Below are positions 29,548 through 53,526 of a stretch of DNA of 56,987 bases, one piece after another. Made by a program: the position numbers and the translations under genes. Origin of the DNA: a virus; IMG/VR virus record IMGVR_UViG_3300021964_000079, positions 1 to 56,987 of that record; one strand, written 5' to 3'. Each line of letters opens with the position of its first letter. Position 1 is the first letter of the stretch. Under the pieces are notes generated by a model. That model was not told the origin of the DNA, searched no databases, and was given only the letters and a program-made list of their open reading frames with translations.

Positions 29548-29647
29548 AGTATAATTCATCCTTTCAAGATGATAAGTTAGACAATATTTGTCAGACACAA
29601 AGTGTTTCGTTTGAATTTCACAAACTCATCAGTGACATTATATACAG

Positions 29648-29676
29648 AGTATAACAGGTTATTATATATTTGTCAA
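29648..29676 (-). promoter_or_regulatory. Sigma70-like early promoter
   Basis: TTGACA (29671-29676), 17 bases, TATACT (29648-29653). Confidence 0.78.
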
Positions 29677-29864
29677 TACTCTTTTTGAATAAAGTGGTGG
29701 GTATTCTGTTGCAAGGAACCCACCGAACCCCGAAAGATTATGCTGCTAGAGCGTAATCTCCATAGTTTGCATTATCGTTTGCATTTAGAAATTTGACCAA
29801 TAACGCAGTCATCCGACAATTCTCCACTCATCTATTCCAGCCTGTCGATCCTATTTCGCCCCCA

Positions 29865-29963
29865 TCAAAAAGAGATTTTACCATAACCAAGTAACAAGGC
29901 TATGATACCAGAAATGAGAATAATATCAGCGCATACACTCCAAAGAATATATAACTTAAACAT
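29865..29963 (-). CDS. Micro-ORF, 32-aa membrane peptide, inside permuted tmRNA
   Basis: Reads MFKLYILWSVCADIILISGI... with one membrane helix, ending two bases before the coding-piece GGGGGCG. It lies wholly in the intervening segment that would be removed on maturation. No Shine-Dalgarno. May be chance. Confidence 0.3.
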   Translation of the reverse strand: MFKLYILWSVCADIILISGIIALLLGYGKISF

Positions 29964-30027
29964 AAATACCGATATTTTTTTTACTAGAGGATTCTTCATC
30001 TGAATCTCCTGATATCATCTCTTTCAT
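29956..30027 (-). CDS. Micro-ORF, 23-aa acidic peptide, inside permuted tmRNA
   Basis: Reads MKEMISGDSDEESSSKKNIG... and starts behind AAAAGGAGATTGTC, a strong Shine-Dalgarno placed directly after the tmRNA CCA. The next micro-ORF overlaps its end. Whether it is translated is unknown. Confidence 0.35.
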   Translation of the reverse strand: MKEMISGDSDEESSSKKNIGIYV

Positions 30028-30110
30028 GACAATCTCCTTTTGGTGGAGGCGGGGGGTATCGCACCCCCGTCCAGTTCTGTATTCAATTCGTATCATCAAA
30101 TTGTATCTTA

Positions 30111-30139
30111 TATATAACACACGGGGATTAATAAGTCAA
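30111..30139 (-). promoter_or_regulatory. Sigma70-like promoter for tmRNA
   Basis: TTGACT (30134-30139), 17 bases, TATATA (30111-30116); predicted start near 30104, matching the 5' end of the acceptor piece. Confidence 0.65.
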
Positions 30140-41489: not shown

Positions 41490-41878
41490 ACCAATTCTCC
41501 TTCTTTTGAATAGTATACACTCTTTAGGTCAAATAAGTCAATGCACTTTTTGCATCCACTACATGGTTTTGACATACCAGTAATCCATTTTCTGTTCGCC
41601 TTATCTCTCTTTGCCCTTACAATATATAGTTCGCACTTAGACAAGTCTTCTACATCAATTGACTTGAGTGCATTCTTGATTGCATGGACCTCTGCATGAA
41701 AAAACACTGCATGATTGTTCTTGCAAAATTGAGCCTGAAAGGGGTGTGTCTTTTTATGATTGTATCCATAGGAAACCACCTTGCCCTTGCGTACCACTGC
41801 CGCAGCAATCCTTGCACCACGAACAGGTTCTACTGACTGTGCAAGCTTGAAAGTATCATCGAAGATTTCAGTGATCAT
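41486..41878 (-). CDS. Cytidine/deoxycytidylate deaminase-like protein
   Basis: A 130-residue zinc deaminase fold: HAEVHAIKNAL (from residue 61) and MSKPCSGCKKCIDL (about 105-112) with the zinc ligands. It is different from the dCMP deaminase at 12801. Substrate may be a nucleoside or nucleotide. Coupled upstream by ATGA. Confidence 0.82.
   Translation of the reverse strand: MITEIFDDTFKLAQSVEPVRGARIAAAVVRKGKVVSYGYNHKKTHPFQAQFCKNNHAVFFHAEVHAIKNALKSIDVEDLSKCELYIVRAKRDKANRKWITGMSKPCSGCKKCIDLFDLKSVYYSKEGELV
41512..41541 (-). promoter_or_regulatory. Sigma70-like promoter for rpsU
   Basis: TTGACT (41536-41541), 18 bases, TATACT (41512-41517), inside the deaminase gene. Confidence 0.55.
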
Positions 41879-42258: not shown

Positions 42259-42287
42259 ACTATAAACTAATTTTTAGGATTTGTCAA
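42259..42287 (-). promoter_or_regulatory. Sigma70-like early promoter (near-leaderless)
   Basis: TTGACA (42282-42287), 17 bases, TATAGT (42259-42264), then TATATA and ATG at 42252, placing the start codon at the predicted +1. Confidence 0.72.
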
Positions 42288-42530: not shown

Positions 42531-42559
42531 ACTATACACTAAAAATTGACCCCTGTCAA
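42531..42559 (-). promoter_or_regulatory. Sigma70-like early promoter
   Basis: TTGACA (42554-42559), 17 bases, TATAGT (42531-42536), upstream of the late box; the gene thus has both promoter types. Confidence 0.7.
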
Positions 42560-42578: not shown

Positions 42579-44630
42579 TTATTTAGTTGTGGCTATGAAC
42601 ACACCGTTCCAATCTTTGTCTAGTGGCTGGGTCTTCATGAACTCACACCTTTCTATCCACATAGTATAGTAGTTTCTCATTTTACCATCAAATTCATTCA
42701 TCAGATCATTGCATAGACGAATGGCATGGTCAAATTGTTGATTGCTATAATACTCGTGCATTCTTTCATGCTGGTTTTCTGCCATACCCCAATTGGTATT
42801 CTTCATCATCCAATCCATTTCACTCAGGACGGTGTAGATACGAATACCGATGGTCTTACCCTTCACTGCCAGTTCATCAACCTTGAGATAGAAGAAGTCA
42901 TTCTTAGTCAAGTCATATGTGGATTCGCCTACTAACAGCAGACAACCATATTCCTTACACTTGCTCTCAATCCTAGCAGCAGTCGATACTGCATCTCCTA
43001 GAACATCGTAGCTGTGTCGCATAGTAGAACCCATCTCTCCAAGATAACCAAGGCCGGTGTTGATACCCGCACCCATTCCTATAGGTGGTTTACCTTCTGC
43101 AACGATCTTGTCGTTAAACTTTACTACTGCATCTAACATCTGTAGTCCAGTTTTGACTGCGCTCCTTGGATGGTCTGGGTCATCTATAGGTGCATTATGA
43201 ATATGCATACTCGCATCACCGATATATTTGATCACCATGCCATTTGAATCTAAAATAGGTTGTGTGATTGCATCCATATACCCATTCATGATTTCAGTAA
43301 GACCCTTGACATCATCACCAAAACTCTCACCCAACGGTGTGAACCCACGAAGGTCAGAGAAGCAAATGCTGATCTCCTTCTTCATACCATCTTTAATAAG
43401 AGAAGGGTTCTCCTGTAGCATACGCACAACTGTAGGTGATGCATACCCTGCGAACTGTTTCTTGATCTCCATCTTCTCCTTATATTCTTCCATGAACCGT
43501 AAGAACGCAGCAATGGCCCAGACCACAAACATAGTAAGGACGGGATATGACCAATCCACTAGATAACTGTACTCTGTAAAGAGGTAGGACGACCCGTAGA
43601 ACGATCCAACAAGAAAAATGGGTAGTAATACTGCCCCAAAATACCATGCGAGTGTGAGAACCACTGATGCTAAGATCAATGCACCCACTCCACTGACTGC
43701 AAGTTCAGCAAGGTCAGTCCAAAATGGTCTGGTTATATTGCGTCCTGTCATCATGGTAGCAAGTGATGCACCTATAAGATTATGCGACTGTATGACCCCC
43801 ACAGGGGTTGCTACGGGACTTTCTAGACCAGAAGCAGTCATACTCAGTATAACGATCTTACCTGTGAGGTCTGGTAATTTCTCATGTAATGCATACACTG
43901 GTGTCTTCCATTTGAAGTCCAACCAGATATTACCATTAGCATCTGTGTCAATCATTTTGTATTTGGGTATGCGTAGTTTCTCCACACCAGCAATACCTGT
44001 CTTCATCTGAAACGATATATCCCCCGCAGCCATGCGTAGGATTTCCATACTGATAGATGGATACAACTTCCCGCCCACTGCAACAACCAAAGGCATACGA
44101 CGAACCACACCATCTTTCTCTGGTGCGATTACCATCATACCAACCGCATTGGCACTCTTTGCCAGTTCTGGAATAGGACCAACCACGCCGGGGTAACTGT
44201 ATACCCACGGTTGCCAGTCTTCTCCAACAGTTGCAACACCACGAACCACACCAGTGTTACTCTTGTCGTTGCTGGGTATCTGTCCTATAACCGTAGGAGT
44301 CTTTTTGAGTATTCTGGCAAGTGCATCATCTTTACCAAATCTGTCTGGGTCTGCAAATAGAATAGGGACAACCACGATAGAGGCACCAGCCTGATAGAGT
44401 TCTATAATTTTGTTTGCAACCCTGTTTCGATCCCACGGCCACTGACCTAGTTTTCTGATTGTTTGATTATTGATCTCTACCGTAGCAAGGTTAGAGAGAG
44501 TCAGAGACTCCTGATTACGTTGGTGTTGGTCTAGTGCTTTGAGTCGCACCATGTCCAAAAACCACGGGTCTGCAAAACGCAATCCACATAATACTAAAAT
44601 CACTGATAATGATATAATCCACTTTTTCAT
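42579..44630 (-). CDS. CHASE2 sensor-class III nucleotide cyclase
   Basis: A 683-residue membrane protein. N-terminal membrane helix, then a CHASE2 extracytoplasmic sensor (about 25-300; LATVEINNQTIRKLGQWPWD), three more membrane helices (about 310-380) and a cyclase domain. Metal-binding Asp residues are in ICFSDLRGFTPL (about 426) and KYIGDASMHIHN (about 472). In GDAVSTAARIES the usual transition-state Asn is Ser, while the Arg is kept, so activity or product may be altered. It would make cAMP or cGMP in response to a periplasmic signal. Start at 44630 overlaps the previous stop as ATGA. Confidence 0.9.
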   Translation of the reverse strand: MKKWIISLSVILVLCGLRFADPWFLDMVRLKALDQHQRNQESLTLSNLATVEINNQTIRKLGQWPWDRNRVANKIIELYQAGASIVVVPILFADPDRFGKDDALARILKKTPTVIGQIPSNDKSNTGVVRGVATVGEDWQPWVYSYPGVVGPIPELAKSANAVGMMVIAPEKDGVVRRMPLVVAVGGKLYPSISMEILRMAAGDISFQMKTGIAGVEKLRIPKYKMIDTDANGNIWLDFKWKTPVYALHEKLPDLTGKIVILSMTASGLESPVATPVGVIQSHNLIGASLATMMTGRNITRPFWTDLAELAVSGVGALILASVVLTLAWYFGAVLLPIFLVGSFYGSSYLFTEYSYLVDWSYPVLTMFVVWAIAAFLRFMEEYKEKMEIKKQFAGYASPTVVRMLQENPSLIKDGMKKEISICFSDLRGFTPLGESFGDDVKGLTEIMNGYMDAITQPILDSNGMVIKYIGDASMHIHNAPIDDPDHPRSAVKTGLQMLDAVVKFNDKIVAEGKPPIGMGAGINTGLGYLGEMGSTMRHSYDVLGDAVSTAARIESKCKEYGCLLLVGESTYDLTKNDFFYLKVDELAVKGKTIGIRIYTVLSEMDWMMKNTNWGMAENQHERMHEYYSNQQFDHAIRLCNDLMNEFDGKMRNYYTMWIERCEFMKTQPLDKDWNGVFIATTK

Positions 44631-45100
44631 AGCGCCGCCACACAATTTCTAAAATATATCATCTCATCGTCTAAATCTTCTTCAAATATGTATATAAAAA
44701 AATTATCCATAATATCTATCCATTCAGATGTTTGTATATTATTTAGGTATGTCCACGGCCCGTGGACATGTTGTGATAAGTCAATTGACAATTCCCCACT
44801 GCCTTTAACTTTTTTTGCAATACCTTCAACCTCTTTTAAAACTCTTTCTTTAGGACAATGTTCAAGTGAAGCATATGAAATCCATTTATCTGCTAAAGGA
44901 ATATCTATGTCATCACTCCAATAATTATAATATGTTTTGTCTACAACTTTAATATATTCTGGTGTGAAATGAAAATCTCGGCTCTTACAGTCTATTGCAA
45001 TTGTTCTATAACCTTCTTTTTTCGCTTTTGTAATACTATATGGGATAGTTTCTAACCCTCTCATATTACATGGGGCGCCAAACTCAATAAATGTTTTCAT
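44627..45100 (-). CDS. Hypothetical protein in curli-like cassette (157 aa)
   Basis: Begins MKTFIEFGAPCNMRGLETIP; alpha/beta (GYRTIAIDCKSRDFHFTPEY, ELSIDLSQHVHGPWTYLNN) without a signal peptide, so cytoplasmic. Not recognised. It links the second curlin gene (1-base gap) to the cyclase gene (ATGA overlap), so it belongs to the same operon. Confidence 0.65.
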   Translation of the reverse strand: MKTFIEFGAPCNMRGLETIPYSITKAKKEGYRTIAIDCKSRDFHFTPEYIKVVDKTYYNYWSDDIDIPLADKWISYASLEHCPKERVLKEVEGIAKKVKGSGELSIDLSQHVHGPWTYLNNIQTSEWIDIMDNFFIYIFEEDLDDEMIYFRNCVAAL

Positions 45101-45101
45101 T

Positions 45102-45887
45102 TCAATTCCCTTGTGTAACGCTTACACTGCATCCCCCCACTGTCGCACAACTTTGCGATAGACTATACGATTGTGCTGTGCCGCCCTGTTGTTTTAGGTC
45201 TAGAGTTGTTGAGTAAGACCCCGAAACTGTTACTGTAGCACTGTGTGCAGCATTACCAGTTTGTACCATATCAATATTATTAGTATCGTTATTCACAGTC
45301 AAGTTCATTGTTTTACTCACGTTACTATCTTGTCGCATGTAAATATCGTTGCTATCTCCGTATATATAGGTCACCATGCTATGTTCATGTCCAGAGTTAT
45401 TTGACCTTTGACTTCCTAAAAATGTATTGCTTGACCCGTGAATATCAAGTATTATAGAATGACCACCATGTTCTACTGTATCAGACGAAGCAACACCGCC
45501 AGCTGTCACGGTATATCCCTGATAAAACTCAACATCATTACTATCGCCCTTTATGTGAAATTCAAACCTGTCTCCACCACAGGTTGATTGATTGCACAAT
45601 TGTTTTACCAATAGAGAATTACTGTCGCCGTCGAGGTCACCACCCCATGATGCACCAGAGCCCCAAGCAGAAGTATATCCAACGTAACCGTCTTTACCCT
45701 CTTGTGTTATGTTGATGGTATTGTTTCCACCGCCATGACTCATATTAATTTCATTATCATTTCCATCTACATCCACAGTGATACTATTCGAATTACCAGT
45801 GGTAACTTGATTGATTATAACTGAATTGCCTGCAAAAGCAATGTTAGTCAGACTGAGTAATAGTAATGATATTAGAAGCGTCTTCAT
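45102..45887 (-). CDS. Curlin-repeat exported protein 2
   Basis: A 261-residue protein with signal peptide MKTLLISLLLLSLTNIAFA and repeated curlin-like units with Q/N-G-N spacing: NSVIINQVTTGNSNSITVDV, NTINITQEGK, DSNDIYMRQDSNVSK, NNIDMVQTGNAAH. Two Cys pairs are present (LCNQSTCGG, SCATVGGCS). It would be secreted by CsgG and may assemble as amyloid. Its first 44 bases overlap the FecR gene. Confidence 0.75.
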   Translation of the reverse strand: MKTLLISLLLLSLTNIAFAGNSVIINQVTTGNSNSITVDVDGNDNEINMSHGGGNNTINITQEGKDGYVGYTSAWGSGASWGGDLDGDSNSLLVKQLCNQSTCGGDRFEFHIKGDSNDVEFYQGYTVTAGGVASSDTVEHGGHSIILDIHGSSNTFLGSQRSNNSGHEHSMVTYIYGDSNDIYMRQDSNVSKTMNLTVNNDTNNIDMVQTGNAAHSATVTVSGSYSTTLDLKQQGGTAQSYSLSQSCATVGGCSVSVTQGN

Positions 45888-46905
45888 CTCTTGTTGTTAT
45901 CTCCGGCACGGGTGTACCCTGTGTAATGTTGATTGTATATCCATAGTCGTTTATCAAGTCTAGTTCTATTGTATTGTTTCCTACCCTTCGTATGATTCGT
46001 GTGCTGTTTCCGTCTACCAGTGTATTAACTTGTGTTGACTTATTAAATCCACTTGTCCTACCATCTATCAACTCTGACTGAGCCAAAGCAAGAGCAATCT
46101 GGTCAAGAATGTTACCTAGTAACTCCACATCCAAATCGTTAATGTCCAACTCGTTAAACTCAAACAAGTCTTCCTCTAGCTCATTCTTATCTAAAGCGGC
46201 AAACTCAAGAAAATCAATATCAAGTAAATTCTTGTTTGCCTTTGAGTCACTAAGCAATTTGATAAGTTTCTTCTTTGGTGGTTTGATAATCAATAAGTTG
46301 TTAATCTGGTCTAGTGTCAAATCTAGTATCACTGGTTTGGATGGTTTTGCTTCTCCTGTACCAACCACAGTTGACTGAAATGCTTGATTCATTATAACCT
46401 GTCCTACATCAGTCTCCACCGATATCTTACCCACTGTCCCGTCTTTATTAGGTAACAGAATAATTAAAGACTTACCAACCTCATCCACCGTCATACTGAA
46501 CGCCGTTCCCAACACACCAATTCTTGCTGTTGGTGTCCGAATGTCCACGTTCTGATTATTCAACTTCGCAATATTACCACTCGCATAACGCACCGTGCCA
46601 AGTGCAATATTCATAACCAACTTCGACCCCTTTCTAGAGTTAGGGTCATAGATAAACTCATCGATAACCAAGGCACTGTGGGCACTCACTGCTACGTTGG
46701 TGTCATCAACAAACTTGATACCAACATCGCCTTTACCAGTTTTCACCGTGTCCTTGAACTCGATATCAGAACCCTTTTGCAAAACAGAGTTTTCACCTGA
46801 CCGTTCTACAGAAGCATTCCCTTTGTGTTTCACCACATTTCCAATAGCACCATAAGCACTGGTACTAAAGAGAATGATACTAATCGTCCATAGTAATCGT
46901 AACAC
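45844..46905 (-). CDS. FecR-domain exported protein with curlin-like tail
   Basis: A 353-residue protein: signal peptide MLRLLWTISIILFSTSAYG, FecR domain (about 20-160; VVKHKGNASVERSGENSVLQ, IALGTVRYASG, TARIGVLGTAFSMT), an acidic helical region (about 205-285) and a C-terminal tail with curlin-like strands (NTIELDLINDYGYTINITQG, IITITQSD). FecR proteins sense or scaffold periplasmic signals. FecR next to CHASE2-cyclase genes is a familiar bacterial pairing. Confidence 0.82.
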   Translation of the reverse strand: MLRLLWTISIILFSTSAYGAIGNVVKHKGNASVERSGENSVLQKGSDIEFKDTVKTGKGDVGIKFVDDTNVAVSAHSALVIDEFIYDPNSRKGSKLVMNIALGTVRYASGNIAKLNNQNVDIRTPTARIGVLGTAFSMTVDEVGKSLIILLPNKDGTVGKISVETDVGQVIMNQAFQSTVVGTGEAKPSKPVILDLTLDQINNLLIIKPPKKKLIKLLSDSKANKNLLDIDFLEFAALDKNELEEDLFEFNELDINDLDVELLGNILDQIALALAQSELIDGRTSGFNKSTQVNTLVDGNSTRIIRRVGNNTIELDLINDYGYTINITQGTPVPEITTRDEDASNIITITQSD

Positions 46906-47563
46906 TGTGATTTGACCCCACTGTTGTCACATCTACAGCTCCATCATAGGCACCACCCTGTGTAATTGAAAATGTGCTAGATGAACCAGTGTGATGAAGA
47001 GTTGTGTCTTGATCAGCAGCACCAGTGTGTGTTGATGTAATCGTATTACTCCCGCCGATAGCTGTGATGTTCGTCACCTTCTTGTCACCAACACCCATTG
47101 TAGCAGTGCTGTTTTCATTTACTGTAATAGTATTGCTATCGCCTGTCGCAGTGATATCAATATCAGCATCATCGGTTGCAGCATTATTACCCACGTTCAC
47201 TGTTGTTGTATTTGAACTGCCAGTGATTGTTTGGATAATACTATTGTCATCAGATGCAGAGTTAGCACCAACAGATACGTTAGACGTATTACTATTACCT
47301 GTCTGATTTATTGTCAATGTCTGTGTTGCACCGACAACAGATGCAGCAATGGTGTTAGTGTTACCAACCTGATCAATGTCTAACGTCTGGCTGTCACCTG
47401 TTAGAGTAACATCAGTTGTATCATCACCGAACTTATTGGTCTGTCCATCTTGATTGATGTTTGCAGTCAGGCTCGCACCAGACTGTGTTATGTATACGTC
47501 GCTCGCATAACTCACACTACACATAACAAAGTAAGCGAGTATTGTAAGTATGCTCGTTCTCAT
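46880..47563 (-). CDS. Curlin-repeat exported protein 1 (CsgA/CsgB-like)
   Basis: A 227-residue protein with signal peptide (MRTSILTILAYFVMCSVSYA) and about eight curlin-type repeats: VYITQSGASLTANINQDGQT, QTLDIDQVGNTNTIAASVVG, QTLTINQTGNSNTSNVSVGA. Alternating Q/N-G-N and Ser/Thr spacing fits amyloid-forming curlins. ATGA coupling to CsgG upstream supports secretion through that pore. Confidence 0.82.
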   Translation of the reverse strand: MRTSILTILAYFVMCSVSYASDVYITQSGASLTANINQDGQTNKFGDDTTDVTLTGDSQTLDIDQVGNTNTIAASVVGATQTLTINQTGNSNTSNVSVGANSASDDNSIIQTITGSSNTTTVNVGNNAATDDADIDITATGDSNTITVNENSTATMGVGDKKVTNITAIGGSNTITSTHTGAADQDTTLHHTGSSSTFSITQGGAYDGAVDVTTVGSNHSVTITMDD

Positions 47564-48348
47564 TTGATTTTCTCCTCTTTAAATTTCCATAATTCTTTTT
47601 GCTCACCTTCCTTGATTATTTCAATAACTGCTTGTTCAATTGCTTTTCTCACAGCGTAGGTAGTGGACTCATTGTCCGTTATCCCTGCTTCAGTCTCCAG
47701 CAATTTAGTTCCCATATCTAAAAATTTAAACACTGTGGCAGATAACTTTGTACTCAGAATAGTTTTCTGAGAACTGACTGCCAAAAGTACTTCACCTGTC
47801 TGTACAGATATTAATCGTAAAGCCACTGTTACCATGTCCTTACGATATTCATCAGATACACCAATACCCAGATATCTTACCCCCATACCACCTGTACTTG
47901 TATTGGTGTCATACCCAACTATGCCCCCTGTCAGCAATACTCCCGCAAACAATAGGGGTTTAATCTTTTCTGCCGTATCTCCGTCATAGTTCTTTCTTGT
48001 GTTTCGTATAATCTGTCTTTCTTTTAACAGATTTTCCAGTTCCATTCTTTCTATGACTTGAAACCACTCGCCCTTACCTGCTTTCTTTAGGGCTTGGATT
48101 AACCATATATCTCCACCTTGTGTCACTGCACTACTTAGTAATGCAAGTGATGAGCTGGATTTTCTTTGTCCTGTTACGTCATTGAACTTATACACCGCAA
48201 CCGGCACCTTACGTTCAGGTGGTGTTATGTTGTATAGTTCATCTACTAACGGCACAGTACTAGGTACAGGAGCATCCTGTGGTTGGATGCTCGCACAACT
48301 AGAAAGTAAAGTCGCCAACAGGAACAGTGATAACAGTCGTACTACCAT
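47560..48348 (-). CDS. csgG: Curli secretion pore CsgG
   Basis: A 262-residue lipoprotein. Signal MVVRLLSLFLLATLLSSC with lipobox Cys18, then the CsgG order: VPVAVYKFNDVTGQRKSSSS, FQVIERMELENLLKERQIIR, GGIVGYDTNTSTGGMGVRYL (the transmembrane strands), VALRLISVQTGEVLLAVSSQ and a helical C-terminus. Side by side it follows E. coli CsgG throughout (277 aa). It forms a nine-subunit outer-membrane pore. Upstream ATGs exist at 48354 and 48360. Confidence 0.93.
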   Translation of the reverse strand: MVVRLLSLFLLATLLSSCASIQPQDAPVPSTVPLVDELYNITPPERKVPVAVYKFNDVTGQRKSSSSLALLSSAVTQGGDIWLIQALKKAGKGEWFQVIERMELENLLKERQIIRNTRKNYDGDTAEKIKPLLFAGVLLTGGIVGYDTNTSTGGMGVRYLGIGVSDEYRKDMVTVALRLISVQTGEVLLAVSSQKTILSTKLSATVFKFLDMGTKLLETEAGITDNESTTYAVRKAIEQAVIEIIKEGEQKELWKFKEEKIK

Positions 48349-48853
48349 TTGCATCCACAATCGTTAAATCTACGGTTTCGCTACTTTTGACATAACTAAT
48401 TGTTGTACCCTCAAAAGTAACTGTACCGGAAGTTGAAGCCTCTTCTCCAAACATACTATCTACTAGTTGTTTTGAAAGTTGTGCATATATTCTTGATTCC
48501 ACATTCTTCATAAATTTAGAAAGGTTTGTATTTGCAGCATCTCGTATTGCTTGACGTTCAGCAGCTTCTTTCTTTTCTCTAATTGCTTGCGACCTTGAAA
48601 ACTCTTGGTTCTCAATGGTCAAAACATGTGCGCTGTATCCCTGACCACTAAATGCGGGTGACTTCCATGTGTGAGTAAGTTCCCCAGCATGTGAAGGTGA
48701 GAGGAATGCACATCCGAAAGCAAAGAGCGCACCGACAAATGCCCCTATCAAGAATGATTTGAGCATATCACTATCGTGCCAGATTGCCTGATTTTTAAAG
48801 AATACATCAGAAGCATGATGACCTGTTTTTAGACTGAAAAAGTTCCTACTCAT
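48299..48853 (-). CDS. csgF: Curli assembly factor CsgF
   Basis: A 184-residue protein. Residues 30-55 form a signal/anchor (MLKSFLIGAFVGALFAFGCA ... SHAG), followed by the CsgF N-terminal pore-plug motif (WKSPAFSGQGYSAHVLTIEN), a charged helix and the C-terminal beta part (GTTISYVKSSETVDLTIVDA). Start at 48853 overlaps the upstream stop; the ATG at 48766 would give a cleaner signal peptide. It overlaps csgG by about 50 bases. Confidence 0.85.
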   Translation of the reverse strand: MSRNFFSLKTGHHASDVFFKNQAIWHDSDMLKSFLIGAFVGALFAFGCAFLSPSHAGELTHTWKSPAFSGQGYSAHVLTIENQEFSRSQAIREKKEAAERQAIRDAANTNLSKFMKNVESRIYAQLSKQLVDSMFGEEASTSGTVTFEGTTISYVKSSETVDLTIVDANGSTTVITVPVGDFTF

Positions 48854-49100
48854 CCTTCTTCTCCTTTTCTATGTCACGAAGTTCCAGAATCGTATTGATT
48901 TTCTGGTCCATTCTTATCATGTCATTATCAAGCATCCTTACTCTGTCAATGAGAGATATAGTTGTCATCGTAGCTTTGTCGAGTGCGGGTAAAATTTGTT
49001 GAGTCACATACTTCCATATAAAAAATATAAAATAACCCATACCAACAGCCATGACAACAGTTATACCTTCGTCTTGAACCGCTTTAATAATATCTTCCAC
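48846..49100 (-). CDS. Small single-span protein, paralogue 2
   Basis: 84 residues from the GTG at 49100 (AAAGGA 8 bases upstream): a membrane helix (ITVVMAVGMGYFIFFIWKYV) and an amphipathic helix (SLIDRVRMLDNDMIRMDQKI). It is homologous along its length to the next gene upstream. First genes of the curli operon; holin- or adaptor-like role possible. A longer ATG frame exists to 49157 but overlaps the upstream gene. Confidence 0.7.
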   Translation of the reverse strand: MEDIIKAVQDEGITVVMAVGMGYFIFFIWKYVTQQILPALDKATMTTISLIDRVRMLDNDMIRMDQKINTILELRDIEKEKKDE

Positions 49101-49104
49101 ACAA

Positions 49105-49383
49105 CTAATCCTTTCTGGCATCCTCCTTGCCATCGGCCGCAGACATCCTTCTGACATCTGGCTTCACACCCAATACATGGCATACCAAAGAATCTAATCG
49201 TACAATTTCATTATTAAGAGTTTTGACACGGTTATCCAACGCCGAAATCAACATATTCAAATTTGACGCCGCATCCACAACAGAAGCGAGAATATATTTT
49301 AGGAGAATAACAATAAAAACACCACCACCTAGTACAGCAGTGATGGTAAAACCTAACTCAGCAATAACACCAAAGATTTCCAT
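49105..49383 (-). CDS. Small single-span protein, paralogue 1
   Basis: 92 residues: MEIFGVIAELGFTITAVLGG, a membrane helix to about residue 32, then SALDNRVKTLNNEIVRLDSL, matching its neighbour (helix then x-L-x-D-x-I-R-x-D). Tandem duplicates at the head of the curli-like operon. Function unknown. Confidence 0.7.
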   Translation of the reverse strand: MEIFGVIAELGFTITAVLGGGVFIVILLKYILASVVDAASNLNMLISALDNRVKTLNNEIVRLDSLVCHVLGVKPDVRRMSAADGKEDARKD

Positions 49384-49422
49384 ACGGTATTCTCCTATGG
49401 ATATTTAGGTTATTCGATTCGT

Positions 49423-50341: not shown

Positions 50342-50486
50342 CACCGTACTCTTCTACTTCATCTTCAAGTTCTTCTGCGAGCTCACCCCCACAGAATACA
50401 CAAAACTTTATAAAATAATAATGATCATCCATCCCATGTTTAATACGAAACTCAGCTTCACATTCTTCACATACTATAAGTTTCAA
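50334..50486 (-). CDS. Small zinc-ribbon protein, TTG start (50 aa)
   Basis: From TTG at 50486, which overlaps the nrdB stop as TTGA, the frame reads LKLIVCEECEAEFRIKHGMD ... FCVFCGGELAEEL, two CxxC knuckles, then an acidic tail. No ATG is possible before the first Cys pair. Overlaps the SDR-like start as ATGAGTAA. Confidence 0.6.
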   Translation of the reverse strand: MKLIVCEECEAEFRIKHGMDDHYYFIKFCVFCGGELAEELEDEVEEYGDE

Positions 50487-51733
50487 TCTACTGCCTCATA
50501 TGCGTCATCCCAGTTACCTGATAATCCTGCCACCTCATACTCCGTAACACGGTTCTCAAAAAAGTTAGTATGATCTGCACCATTCAGTACCCACTCTAAC
50601 CAAGGTAAAGGATTTTCCTTCACCTTGAAATTGGTTTTCAAACCCAACTGCAACAAACGTCTGTCTGTTATATACCTTATATATGATTTTACTTCAGACG
50701 CATCTAGACCTTCAATCTCACCCATCTTATAAGCAAGGTCAACGAACTTGTCTTCCAACTTGACTGCAAGTCGAGCCATTGTATAAATGTCTCCCTTGAA
50801 ATCATCGTCAACCACCTTGGGGTGTTCAACACAGAACTGACGAAACACCTTTGCGTTTCCTTCGACATGCATAGACTCATCACGGATTGACCACTCGACA
50901 ACCTTGCCCATACCCTTCATCTTACCGAACCGTTGGAAGTTGAGAAGCATAACAAATGATGCAAACAGTGCAACACCCTCGTTGAACACAGACTTTGCAA
51001 GTGCAAGTCCTAGCCCCTTCATGGTAGTATTGTCGGACTCCTGCATGAACTCAATCTTATTGACCATCTCCTTGTATTCAAGAAATGCATGGTACTCACT
51101 GTCTGGTAATCCAAGTGTCTCATTCAGTAGAGCATATGCCCGTTGATGAATACCCTCACGAGCTGCAAAGGAACCAAGCATGTTACGGATTTCATTATTC
51201 TTGAACTTGGGAATGAACTGGTCATAGTAGTTCTGACCCACTGCAACATCTGACTGTGTGAACAGACGTAGAATATTGGTGACGTAATCTTTCTCAACCT
51301 GAGTGACCTTACCGGACTTCCAATCTGATACATCTTCTGACAAATCAAGTTCGTCCTCAATCCAGTGTGCCTTCTCATGTCGTGTGGTAATCTCTACTGC
51401 CCACGGGTAGTGAAAAGGTTTATAGGTTTCACTGAACTGCAATAGTCCACCACCACTACGTTTCTTTAATAGATCATCGCCTACCTTCATTAGTTCATCA
51501 TACCCACCGATACGTTTGTCATCAATGAAGATTTGAGGAACAGAATTAACTCTACGAGTATTCATCTCACCTACCACTTCGGTAGCACCATTGATTGTCT
51601 GATAGAACGCAAGACGTTCCTCTTCATTATCAATCAACTCTTCTTCATACTCAAACGCATGTTCCTTCAACCAATTCTTTGCCATCGAACAAAATGGACA
51701 ATCTGTTTTTGTTACTACTCTTATCCCTGACAC
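50483..51733 (-). CDS. nrdB: Glutaredoxin-ribonucleotide reductase beta subunit fusion
   Basis: A 416-residue protein. Residues 1-85 are a glutaredoxin (TKTDCPFCSMAKNWLKEH; VPQIFIDDKRIGGYDELM), and about 95-416 the class I beta subunit: iron ligands in WIEDELDLSEDV, AAREGIHQRAYA, NEGVALFASF and IRDESMHVEG. It makes the radical for NrdA and the fused Grx can recharge the enzyme. GTG at 51733, 8 bases after GAGGAG, is the best start; it overlaps nrdA. Confidence 0.92.
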   Translation of the reverse strand: MSGIRVVTKTDCPFCSMAKNWLKEHAFEYEEELIDNEEERLAFYQTINGATEVVGEMNTRRVNSVPQIFIDDKRIGGYDELMKVGDDLLKKRSGGGLLQFSETYKPFHYPWAVEITTRHEKAHWIEDELDLSEDVSDWKSGKVTQVEKDYVTNILRLFTQSDVAVGQNYYDQFIPKFKNNEIRNMLGSFAAREGIHQRAYALLNETLGLPDSEYHAFLEYKEMVNKIEFMQESDNTTMKGLGLALAKSVFNEGVALFASFVMLLNFQRFGKMKGMGKVVEWSIRDESMHVEGNAKVFRQFCVEHPKVVDDDFKGDIYTMARLAVKLEDKFVDLAYKMGEIEGLDASEVKSYIRYITDRRLLQLGLKTNFKVKENPLPWLEWVLNGADHTNFFENRVTEYEVAGLSGNWDDAYEAVD

Positions 51734-53526
51734 GCAACACACTCCTCTTGACTCATAGCCTGAGTCTCATAATCTTTCAGTGCTTCACGCACTACCTTGG
51801 TTGATACGTTCTCTGCTTTGTTTGAAGTTTCTGTTCGTAAGTAATACAACCCCTTACATCCCAACTTCCAAGCATTATAGTGTACTTTATGTAGGTCTAC
51901 CTTCGATGCTCCTGATGGAAAGAATATATTTAGAGACTGACCCTGACATAGATACTTTTGACGATCTGCGGCTTGAGTTACGATTGCGTTCTGGTTAATT
52001 TCAATAGCAGTCCTAAATATACTCTTTACCTCTGGTGACAGAAAACTTAGATGTTGAACAGAACCACCATTGGTGATGATTGAACTCCAAGTTGTCGCAT
52101 CATTCTTATTTACCTTCATCAATTCCGCTTCAAGATACTTGTCCTTGACCAGATGTGAACCAGCACGGGTTCTATGCGTGTATGCATTTGCCTTACTAGG
52201 TTCAATAGATGGTGATGTACCACAGATAATAGAACTGTTAGCATTAGGTGCAATGGCCAATAGATGGGAATTGCGACGACCTGTGCGTTCCATGTCTGGA
52301 CACTCACCACTTTCTGTTGCTAGTTTTAATGTCTCTGCAACTGCCTCTGATTTGATATGTTCAAAGATTTGAATGTTCTTAACCGCAGCAGTATCGGACT
52401 CAAAAGGAATATGATTCTTGTGTAGATAGGAATGCCAACCCATTGCACCCAAACCAAGGGATCGTTCTTGTGAAGCAGAGAAACGAGCACGACTAATCTC
52501 ATCACCAGAATTGTCAATGAAGAACTGAAGTACGTTGTCTAGGAATCGAATAAGGTCACGAATCATTGGTGTGTCCTTCCATTCGTCATACTTCTCCAGA
52601 TTGACAGATGATAAGCAACACACAGCAGTGCGGTCATCATTGGTAGGTAGATGAATCTCATTACACAGGTTAGACCCGTTAATCTTTAATCCTTTGTCTT
52701 TCATGGTCTGTGGTAATGCACGATTAGCAGTATCAATGAAGTTTAGATAGGGTTCACCTGTGCGATAACGAATCTCTAGGATTGTCTCCCATAACTTCCT
52801 TGCCTTCATACTGTCACGGGCATCTTGTTCGTTAGGGTCAACCAAGTCCCACATCTCATCTCGTTCTACAGCTCGCATGAATGCATCCGTGATATTCACC
52901 GCATGGTGCAGATTTAGGTTCTTACGATTGACATCTCCTGTAGGAATACGCATATTAAGGAACTCAATAATATCAGGGTGGGATACATCCATGTATGCAG
53001 CGTATGACCCCTTACGGGTCTTCCCCTGTCGATATGCGGTCATATCAGCGTCCACTGTATGAATGAATGGCATAGGTCCGGGTGCCTTATCTGACACTGC
53101 ACGAACATCACTCCAATGTCCCCCGACTCCACCACCCTTGACTGACAACCACCGCAACTCAGCAGAATGGTCAATCAGTCCTTCCAGTGTATCGGGGACA
53201 TATGTAAGAAAGCAAGAGATAGGAAGAGCTCTTACCTTCTCACCCGGCATAGGAGCATTGGATAACACAGGTGACGCAAACATGAACCACCCGTCACTTA
53301 CATAATCGTAAATGCGTTGGGCAAGGTCCATGTCACCATATGAATACGCAACCGCTGCTCGTGCATATGCCTGTTGTGGTGATACCTCATCCTTTGTCTG
53401 GTAGTAATCTGTAAGTAACTTCTTAGCTTGTTCTGATAGAGATTGATCTTTTGTTCTGTCTATTTTGATTCCAACGTAGTCTTCTGTGGTTTCGAGGTAT
53501 ACAACTTCAGCGGTTGCGACTTCCAT
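51721..53526 (-). CDS. nrdA: Ribonucleotide reductase alpha subunit NrdA
   Basis: A 601-residue class I alpha subunit. Catalytic elements: ALPISCFLTYV (thiol Cys), NLCNEIHLP (N-C-E active site), second thiol CCLSSVNL, tyrosines near GLYYLRTET and the C-terminal thiol pair CVACQG. The N-terminal ATP-cone is missing, so dATP feedback control may be absent. It converts ribo- to deoxyribonucleotides for phage replication. Confidence 0.95.
   Translation of the reverse strand: MEVATAEVVYLETTEDYVGIKIDRTKDQSLSEQAKKLLTDYYQTKDEVSPQQAYARAAVAYSYGDMDLAQRIYDYVSDGWFMFASPVLSNAPMPGEKVRALPISCFLTYVPDTLEGLIDHSAELRWLSVKGGGVGGHWSDVRAVSDKAPGPMPFIHTVDADMTAYRQGKTRKGSYAAYMDVSHPDIIEFLNMRIPTGDVNRKNLNLHHAVNITDAFMRAVERDEMWDLVDPNEQDARDSMKARKLWETILEIRYRTGEPYLNFIDTANRALPQTMKDKGLKINGSNLCNEIHLPTNDDRTAVCCLSSVNLEKYDEWKDTPMIRDLIRFLDNVLQFFIDNSGDEISRARFSASQERSLGLGAMGWHSYLHKNHIPFESDTAAVKNIQIFEHIKSEAVAETLKLATESGECPDMERTGRRNSHLLAIAPNANSSIICGTSPSIEPSKANAYTHRTRAGSHLVKDKYLEAELMKVNKNDATTWSSIITNGGSVQHLSFLSPEVKSIFRTAIEINQNAIVTQAADRQKYLCQGQSLNIFFPSGASKVDLHKVHYNAWKLGCKGLYYLRTETSNKAENVSTKVVREALKDYETQAMSQEECVACQG

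Follow-up and report, generated by a model that had tools for sequence, protein, structure and literature searches.

Genes for curli-type (type VIII) secretion are known from marine phages. CsgF and CsgG were reported by Zaragoza-Solas 2020 (PMC7029224), and Buchholz 2022 modelled the pore of phage Melnitz and stated that curlins were lacking (PMC9004378); these pelagimyophage and Melnitz papers recognised CsgG and CsgF plus an unspecified curli-associated protein only. In pelagiphages, Wittmers 2022 identified genes for curlins, FecR, adenylate cyclase and 'HK', arranged as in the locus considered here, and phage-borne curli modules occurred at all 65 ocean stations surveyed (PMC9599517). A literature search for work after 2022 found nothing further. 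Here we analyse the curli-type module of IMG/VR virus record IMGVR_UViG_3300021964_000079, whose whole stretch of 56,987 nucleotides is referred to as the window. A preliminary description of this DNA had mentioned CsgG and CsgF genes in some marine T4-like phages, in agreement with the reports on pelagimyophages and Melnitz (PMC7029224, PMC9004378), and had singled out the coupling with curlins, FecR and a cyclase for a closer look; this coupling is not novel, having been published for phage curli modules in 2022 (PMC9599517). The module type is thus already known, and what is new lies in the details of its parts and its origin.

We interpret the module as a complete, self-contained curli-type exporter that a T4-like marine phage most likely expresses late and that is equipped with a periplasmic FecR/CHASE2 readout, an interpretation to which we assign a probability of roughly 55%. 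It comprises nine open reading frames (ORFs) on the minus strand, running from position 49383 to 42579 and mostly overlapping or nearly touching, in the order two small membrane proteins, CsgF, CsgG, curlin 1, FecR, curlin 2, a 157-residue insert and a CHASE2-cyclase (Table 1). Viral contigs were scanned with CsgG as the key, a design that cannot show how frequent FecR or CHASE2 is outside CsgG loci, and 46 loci were obtained. Gene order was identical in every related phage locus spanning the region and in Pelagibacter phage HTVC008M and Methylophilales phage Melnitz, both of which carry the complete module, with CsgG 47-49% and FecR 40-46% identical to those of the window. The pelagiphage systems, found in podo- and myophages, are likewise built of one or two 'HK' genes, CsgF, CsgG, CsgA/B, FecR, CsgA/B and adenylate cyclase without CsgC, CsgD or CsgE (PMC9599517), whereas the window has an extra 157-residue gene before the cyclase and a Ser-type catalytic domain. 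With E. coli curli (csgBAC-csgDEFG) the window has CsgG, CsgF and curlin repeats in common, but it is without CsgC, CsgD and CsgE and adds FecR and the CHASE2 cyclase. The CsgE gate, the CsgC chaperone and the CsgD regulator belong to the E. coli set and are often missing elsewhere, so they are not required. None of the three was seen among the Pfam, PHROG and NCBIfam matches of the module proteins, and their absence has been reported for alphaproteobacterial curli modules too (PMC9599517).

Most of what the preliminary description had said of the module's composition therefore stands. It had proposed a nine-gene operon with a pore, CsgF and two curlin-type substrates bearing signal peptides, with CsgE, CsgC and CsgD not visible, and with FecR and the cyclase tied to export. 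All nine ORFs were found on one strand, hidden Markov model searches against Pfam recovered CsgG, CsgF, CHASE2, Guanylate_cyc and FecR (Table 1), PHROG and NCBIfam matches agreed with these assignments, domain matches and motif statistics identified the pore, CsgF and both substrates, and the invariant order in spanning loci places FecR and the CHASE2-cyclase in one conserved unit with the export genes. Throughout, the presence of signal peptides was assessed by eye.

The pore and its partner match their bacterial counterparts, as had been suggested. CsgG residues 10-261 match the solved E. coli CsgG (3x2r/4uv3) with E values of 1e-46 to 1e-43, and the lipobox Cys22 is invariant among the phages. 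For CsgF, whose ORF extends to 48853, and for the cyclase, comparison with relatives and signal peptides points to likely corrected starts (48766 and 44630, respectively); from 48766, CsgF carries a signal peptide. In the F-x-x-P-x-F-x-G motif of CsgF, P34, F36, G38 and G40 (alignment numbering) are invariant, and a profile aligned this stretch to FRNPNFGGN of E. coli CsgF (E 0.03). In the CsgG-CsgF structures, this stretch of E. coli CsgF enters the CsgG barrel. Retention of the pore peptide argues against the proposal that phage CsgF stopped pairing with CsgG. A further CsgG, 37% identical to that of the window, occurs in OR851715.1, a record of 1,499 bases labelled 'Salmonella phage' that is probably host DNA.

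That the two substrates carry curlin repeats, as the preliminary description had it, and not low-complexity noise, was supported by the motif statistics and by the homologues, but not by the window's own Curlin_rpt scores, which fall below the threshold (curlin 1, 17.8 bits against a cut-off of 20.7; curlin 2, E 0.38). The hxhxQ strand motif occurs four times in curlin 1 (0.8 expected from composition shuffles, p 0.005) and nine times in curlin 2 (1.1 expected, p < 0.0002), about 5 to 8 times the frequency in composition shuffles. Over all relatives the counts are 178 against 34 expected for curlin 1 and 266 against 42 for curlin 2. Moreover, 14 of 19 curlin 2 homologues match Curlin_rpt, the best at 2.6e-10. 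For curlin 2, the predicted structure stacks about 18 strands into a repeated-strand solenoid (mean predicted local distance difference test (pLDDT) score 77.7; predicted template modelling (pTM) score 0.79). A Foldseek search of the PDB with this model gave no significant match (best E 0.16), and its VIA matches, generic beta-helices and SufB/D, point to a solenoid and not to curli specifically. Despite the sub-cut-off Pfam scores in the window, the predicted membership of both substrates in the curlin family is secure on the basis of repeats, homologues and model.

In all homologues of the FecR-domain protein, a signal peptide directly precedes the FecR domain. The AlphaFold model of the window's protein, of moderate quality (pLDDT 66, pTM 0.52), consists of a folded part (residues 22-200), a low-confidence linker (about 203-282) and beta strands (286-351) ending in ITITQSD. 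Residues 49-209 match the FecR-type periplasmic domains of PupR and BDI_1681 (Z about 15). The N-terminal part, residues 18-113, resembles in fold 5ix9, the domain by which an antifreeze adhesin, MpAFP of Marinomonas primoryensis, is anchored at the cell surface. VIA gave Z 11.1 at 2.0 Å with 34% identity over 73 residues, Foldseek a probability of 1.00 (E 1.9e-3, 0.9 Å, 40% identity over 62 columns) and a profile match E 4.5e-4. Retention domains of RTX adhesins stay periplasmic, holding the adhesin in an outer-membrane channel (PMC13090378). The likeness to such anchoring or retention domains (5ix9, LapA-type) resides in residues 18-113; unlike RTX adhesins, the phage protein has no RTX repeats and the module no type I secretion genes, and unlike LapA-type retention modules, the protein has no [T/A/P]AAG LapG site and continues from the anchor-like part into the FecR beta domain. 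The protein is thus not the N terminus of a giant LapG-cleaved adhesin of the type I pathway; it has 353 residues, is of Sec type and is free of the AAG motif. Near the C terminus, a phi-x-phi-x-Q motif is present in 23/23 distinct phage FecR proteins, 21/23 curlin 2 and 7/32 curlin 1 proteins; CsgF, CsgG and the small membrane proteins have none and the cyclases 2/25. We speak of a curlin resemblance of the FecR tail, not of homology, because the evidence consists of this terminal motif and weak profile scores (hhalign probability < 3%; hmmsearch E 1e-4 to 1e-2, in a set of just 28 sequences), by which homology to the curlins is not established.

The cyclase gene is present in every phage locus spanning the region. 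Class III cyclases have six key residues: two metal-binding Asp, a Lys and a purine residue, and an Asn and an Arg. In the window these positions are D431, K473, D477, D547, S554 and R558, of which five are present as required, Ser554 replacing the transition-state Asn. Pairwise identity along the gene shows a sharp step near residue 400. The window and a related phage locus, L008, are 93% identical in CsgG, 92% in FecR and 73% in CHASE2 but 43% in the catalytic domain, whereas the window and Melnitz are 47%, 40% and 36% identical in CsgG, FecR and CHASE2 but 89% in the catalytic domain. The exchanged catalytic type, D-K-D-D-S-R, is that of the window and Melnitz; the other type, which HTVC008M has, is the canonical D-K-D-S-N-R. 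As judged from the step and the opposite identity patterns, the catalytic half was swapped by recombination in the ancestor of one lineage, while the sensor half remained with the export genes. That the CHASE2 half tracks the export genes and the cyclase half does not speaks for the exporter interpretation. In two other loci the cyclase shows possible decay or sequencing error: L005 is also without the catalytic Arg (DKDDSS), and in L024 the gene is split into two ORFs.

A late-promoter-like motif, CCTAAATA, precedes the first module gene (Table 1), and members of the window's own clade share it there; about ten distinct relatives carry TATAAATA 7-45 nt upstream of that gene. The window has nine occurrences of TATAAATA against 3.15 expected, several of them just upstream of tail genes. 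Past the module, three strong sigma-70-like promoters stand in series on the minus strand (42531-42559, 42259-42287 and 41512-41541), two of them identical (TTGACA-17-TATAGT), which suggests that a putative early-gene block begins there. The placement of TATAAATA and CCTAAATA, together with the sigma-70-like promoter past the cyclase, makes late expression of the module likely.

Table 1. Coordinates of the module genes, associated promoters and the Hyphomonas locus. Positions are those of the window unless another record is named.
Feature	Position	Strand	Evidence and remarks
Small membrane protein 1, 92 residues	49105..49383	-	ORF; phrog_18771 E 4.1e-25
Small membrane protein 2, 103 residues	48846..49157	-	phrog_18771 E 3.8e-29
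CsgF, 155 residues from likely start 48766	48299..48766	-	Pfam CsgF 1.2e-19
CsgG outer-membrane pore, lipobox LLSSC	47560..48360	-	Pfam 4.5e-57
Curlin-like protein 1, 227 residues, signal peptide, curlin repeats	46880..47563	-	Curlin_rpt 0.0033; NCBIfam CsgA 2.2e-6
FecR-domain protein, 353 residues, signal peptide	45844..46905	-	Pfam FecR 2.9e-6
Curlin-like protein 2, 261 residues, signal peptide, beta-solenoid model	45102..45887	-	Motif excess; Curlin_rpt matches of homologues
157-residue protein	44627..45100	-	Inserted in window lineage only
CHASE2 sensor, membrane segments, class III nucleotide cyclase	42579..44645, likely start 44630 (683 residues, as in relatives)	-	CHASE2 1.2e-35; Guanylate_cyc 1.1e-16
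CCTAAATA, late-promoter-like motif	49402..49409	-	18-26 nt upstream of first module gene
Sigma-70-like promoter TTGACA-17-TATAGT	42531..42559	-	11/12 consensus positions; directly after cyclase gene, facing next genes
csgF-csgG-curlin-fecR-CHASE2 cyclase locus, Hyphomonas sp. TMED17	L054:9486-15509, NHBW01000006.1		Partly overlapping genes

Under our interpretation of the module as an exporter, the host Sec system would deliver the substrates to the periplasm, and CsgG/CsgF would, by homology, release the curlins, which would assemble into fibres on the surface of the infected cell. The FecR protein would be a periplasmic partner, its N-terminal part resembling an outer-membrane RTX adhesin anchor, and its curlin-like C terminus could associate with the pore or the fibre. 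CHASE2 would read the state of the periplasmic assembly and set a cyclic-nucleotide output, predicted to be cyclic AMP (cAMP). We infer this readout from the gene coupling and from two precedents: FecR and CHASE2 genes lie side by side in a biofilm-regulating operon of Burkholderia that is not a curli locus (PMC5192318), and S. meliloti CHASE2 cyclases answer a signal sensed via the outer-membrane barrel NsrA (PMC13001267). In an alphaproteobacterial genome (G454, locus L213), a CHASE2 gene lies beside a divergent FecR-domain gene, with no curli genes in the short stretch examined. The phage might benefit from adhesion among cells or virions late in infection or from a shield against other phages; late aggregation is our tentative first choice. 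A more specific and distinctly doubtful extension is that the FecR protein serves as a tethered anchor for the fibre, with its RTX-anchor-like and FecR domains in the periplasm, its flexible linker passing through the CsgG-CsgF pore and its curlin-like C terminus seeding or capping the fibre outside, the CHASE2 cyclase sensing whether the anchor is seated.

Several points weigh against the exporter interpretation. In the Melnitz study, cultured cells did not clump when infected, and CsgF was argued to have diverged from the pore (PMC9004378). The contrast between the CHASE2 and cyclase halves could reflect simple linkage, because CHASE2 adjoins the export genes, and the activity of the window's cyclase is uncertain because Ser replaces the transition-state Asn. 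Common descent of the FecR tail and the curlins is not established by profile comparison, and the window's CCTAAATA differs from TATAAATA at two positions. The failure of Melnitz-infected cells to clump would also fit a pore that serves uptake or lysis timing in a pinholin- or secretin-like manner, with the curlins as plugs or relics and no fibre, a role put forward for HTVC008M-like phages and Melnitz. Because the module lacks CsgE, such a pore may be ungated. Yet every spanning locus keeps both curlins, whose repeats are far more frequent than chance would give, and the pore peptide of CsgF is conserved as well. The argument from Melnitz presumed that curlins were absent, whereas the Melnitz record holds two genes annotated as curlin-repeat proteins; we consider this role unlikely but not negligible.

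The cyclase gene is long and present in every spanning locus, and recombination has replaced its catalytic domain, a hint that its output matters. The module could on these grounds be taken for a signalling cassette above all, in which FecR and the CHASE2 cyclase raise cAMP in the host so as to redirect its metabolism, with the curli genes as passengers. The loss of the catalytic Asn in the window and Melnitz type, and the fact that the cyclase was never seen without curli genes in the CsgG-keyed survey, make this improbable. The 2022 proposal that FecR is an iron-responsive regulator (PMC9599517) agrees with the Pfam FecR domain and with the PupR-like fold of residues 49-209, but the protein starts with a signal peptide and lacks the cytoplasmic anti-sigma domain expected at the N terminus, and the module contains no gene for a sigma factor or a FecA-type receptor. 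FecR-domain matches in Alphaproteobacteria, moreover, often belong to very large proteins (roughly 600 to 6,900 residues). Because the anti-sigma part and a sigma-factor gene are absent, such a role is very improbable, and a FecI/FecR-type regulator as such was rejected for want of the anti-sigma part.

To place the module among cellular loci, bacterial and archaeal relatives of CsgG were compared as the best 80 of 265, and 18 further loci were added from Hyphomonas relatives and other Proteobacteria. About 67 of the best 80 of 265 are curli loci of alphaproteobacterial type in which the stretch examined contains neither FecR nor CHASE2, and both were likewise absent from the 18 further loci. 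Among roughly 85 bacterial curli loci examined, the only one with FecR and CHASE2 is that of Hyphomonas sp. TMED17, flanked by metabolic genes on a 705-kb contig. It is like the window in its five-gene core, gene order and partial gene overlap, and differs in its location on a bacterial chromosome, the absence of small membrane genes, a single long curlin and a FecR without the terminal Q motif. The abstract of Wittmers 2022 states that such regulators do not lie inside bacterial type VIII secretion operons (PMC9599517); unlike that statement, as worded in the abstract, the TMED17 locus is a bacterial type VIII locus that holds both. Its CsgG groups with those of the phages (100/100). The best tree nests it among them (98/93), but the approximately unbiased test does not reject placement as their sister (p 0.08-0.09; long branch), and we make no call on the direction of transfer. 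About a dozen of the best 80 of 265 are phage-type modules on short or phage-sized contigs in bacterial metagenome-assembled genomes (MAGs) of unlikely taxa; these are probably misbinned phage contigs. The candidates are L079 and L086 (JAAXIF010000105.1 and JAAXIF010000028.1), L050-L053, L055, L057, L081, L087, L099 and L100, comprising contigs of 121 kb and 142 kb as well as short ones in MAGs labelled Sphingobacteriales, Flavobacteriaceae, Synechococcus and Pirellulales.

The remaining parts of the module are the small membrane proteins and the insert. The former are paralogues, as indicated by their common phrog_18771 match and their alignment; protein 1, the conserved first gene of the module, has one transmembrane segment followed by a polar, probably coiled-coil tail, and homologues of both types combine a single hydrophobic stretch with a polar tail. 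Genes in this position were named 'histidine kinase' ('HK') by Wittmers et al. 2022 (PMC9599517). No Pfam family, HisKA and HATPase included, matched any of 15 homologues (about 81-116 residues) at E 0.01, and the kinase label is not supported. The 157-residue gene was seen, among the CsgG-keyed phage loci, only in the window and the near-identical L004; annotated phages gave no match to its product, which has a weak match to phrog_266 (E 0.0019).

Elsewhere, the contig is T4-like, with UvsX, a DnaB-type helicase, a primase, NrdA/NrdB, a baseplate hub with tail lysozyme and a tail-tube cap. By protein comparison, the nearest cultured phages are Melnitz (NrdA 77%) and, far more distant, HTVC008M (tail-tube cap 29%), both filed under Kyanoviridae. 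NrdB (50483-51742, minus strand) is fused at its N terminus to a thioredoxin/glutaredoxin-like domain (phrog_22, residues 9-87; phrog_86, residues 105-416). A permuted, alphaproteobacterial-type transfer-messenger RNA (tmRNA) with the tag ANDNANYGDYALAA lies at 29647-30133 (minus strand). Melnitz has the same tmRNA type followed by a glutamine riboswitch, of which the window has none above threshold. An alphaproteobacterial host was considered on account of the tmRNA and dropped, since Melnitz has this tmRNA type yet infects OM43.

Taken together, the rereading of FecR as a secreted, anchor-like protein, the removal of the kinase label, the chromosomal locus and the domain exchange turn a vague 'auxiliary gene' story into one of testable protein interactions, and indicate that parts of the ocean-wide phage curli modules are partly mislabelled in the literature. 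If the tethered FecR anchor were true, both phages and a marine bacterium would possess a sensor of pore occupancy in amyloid export.

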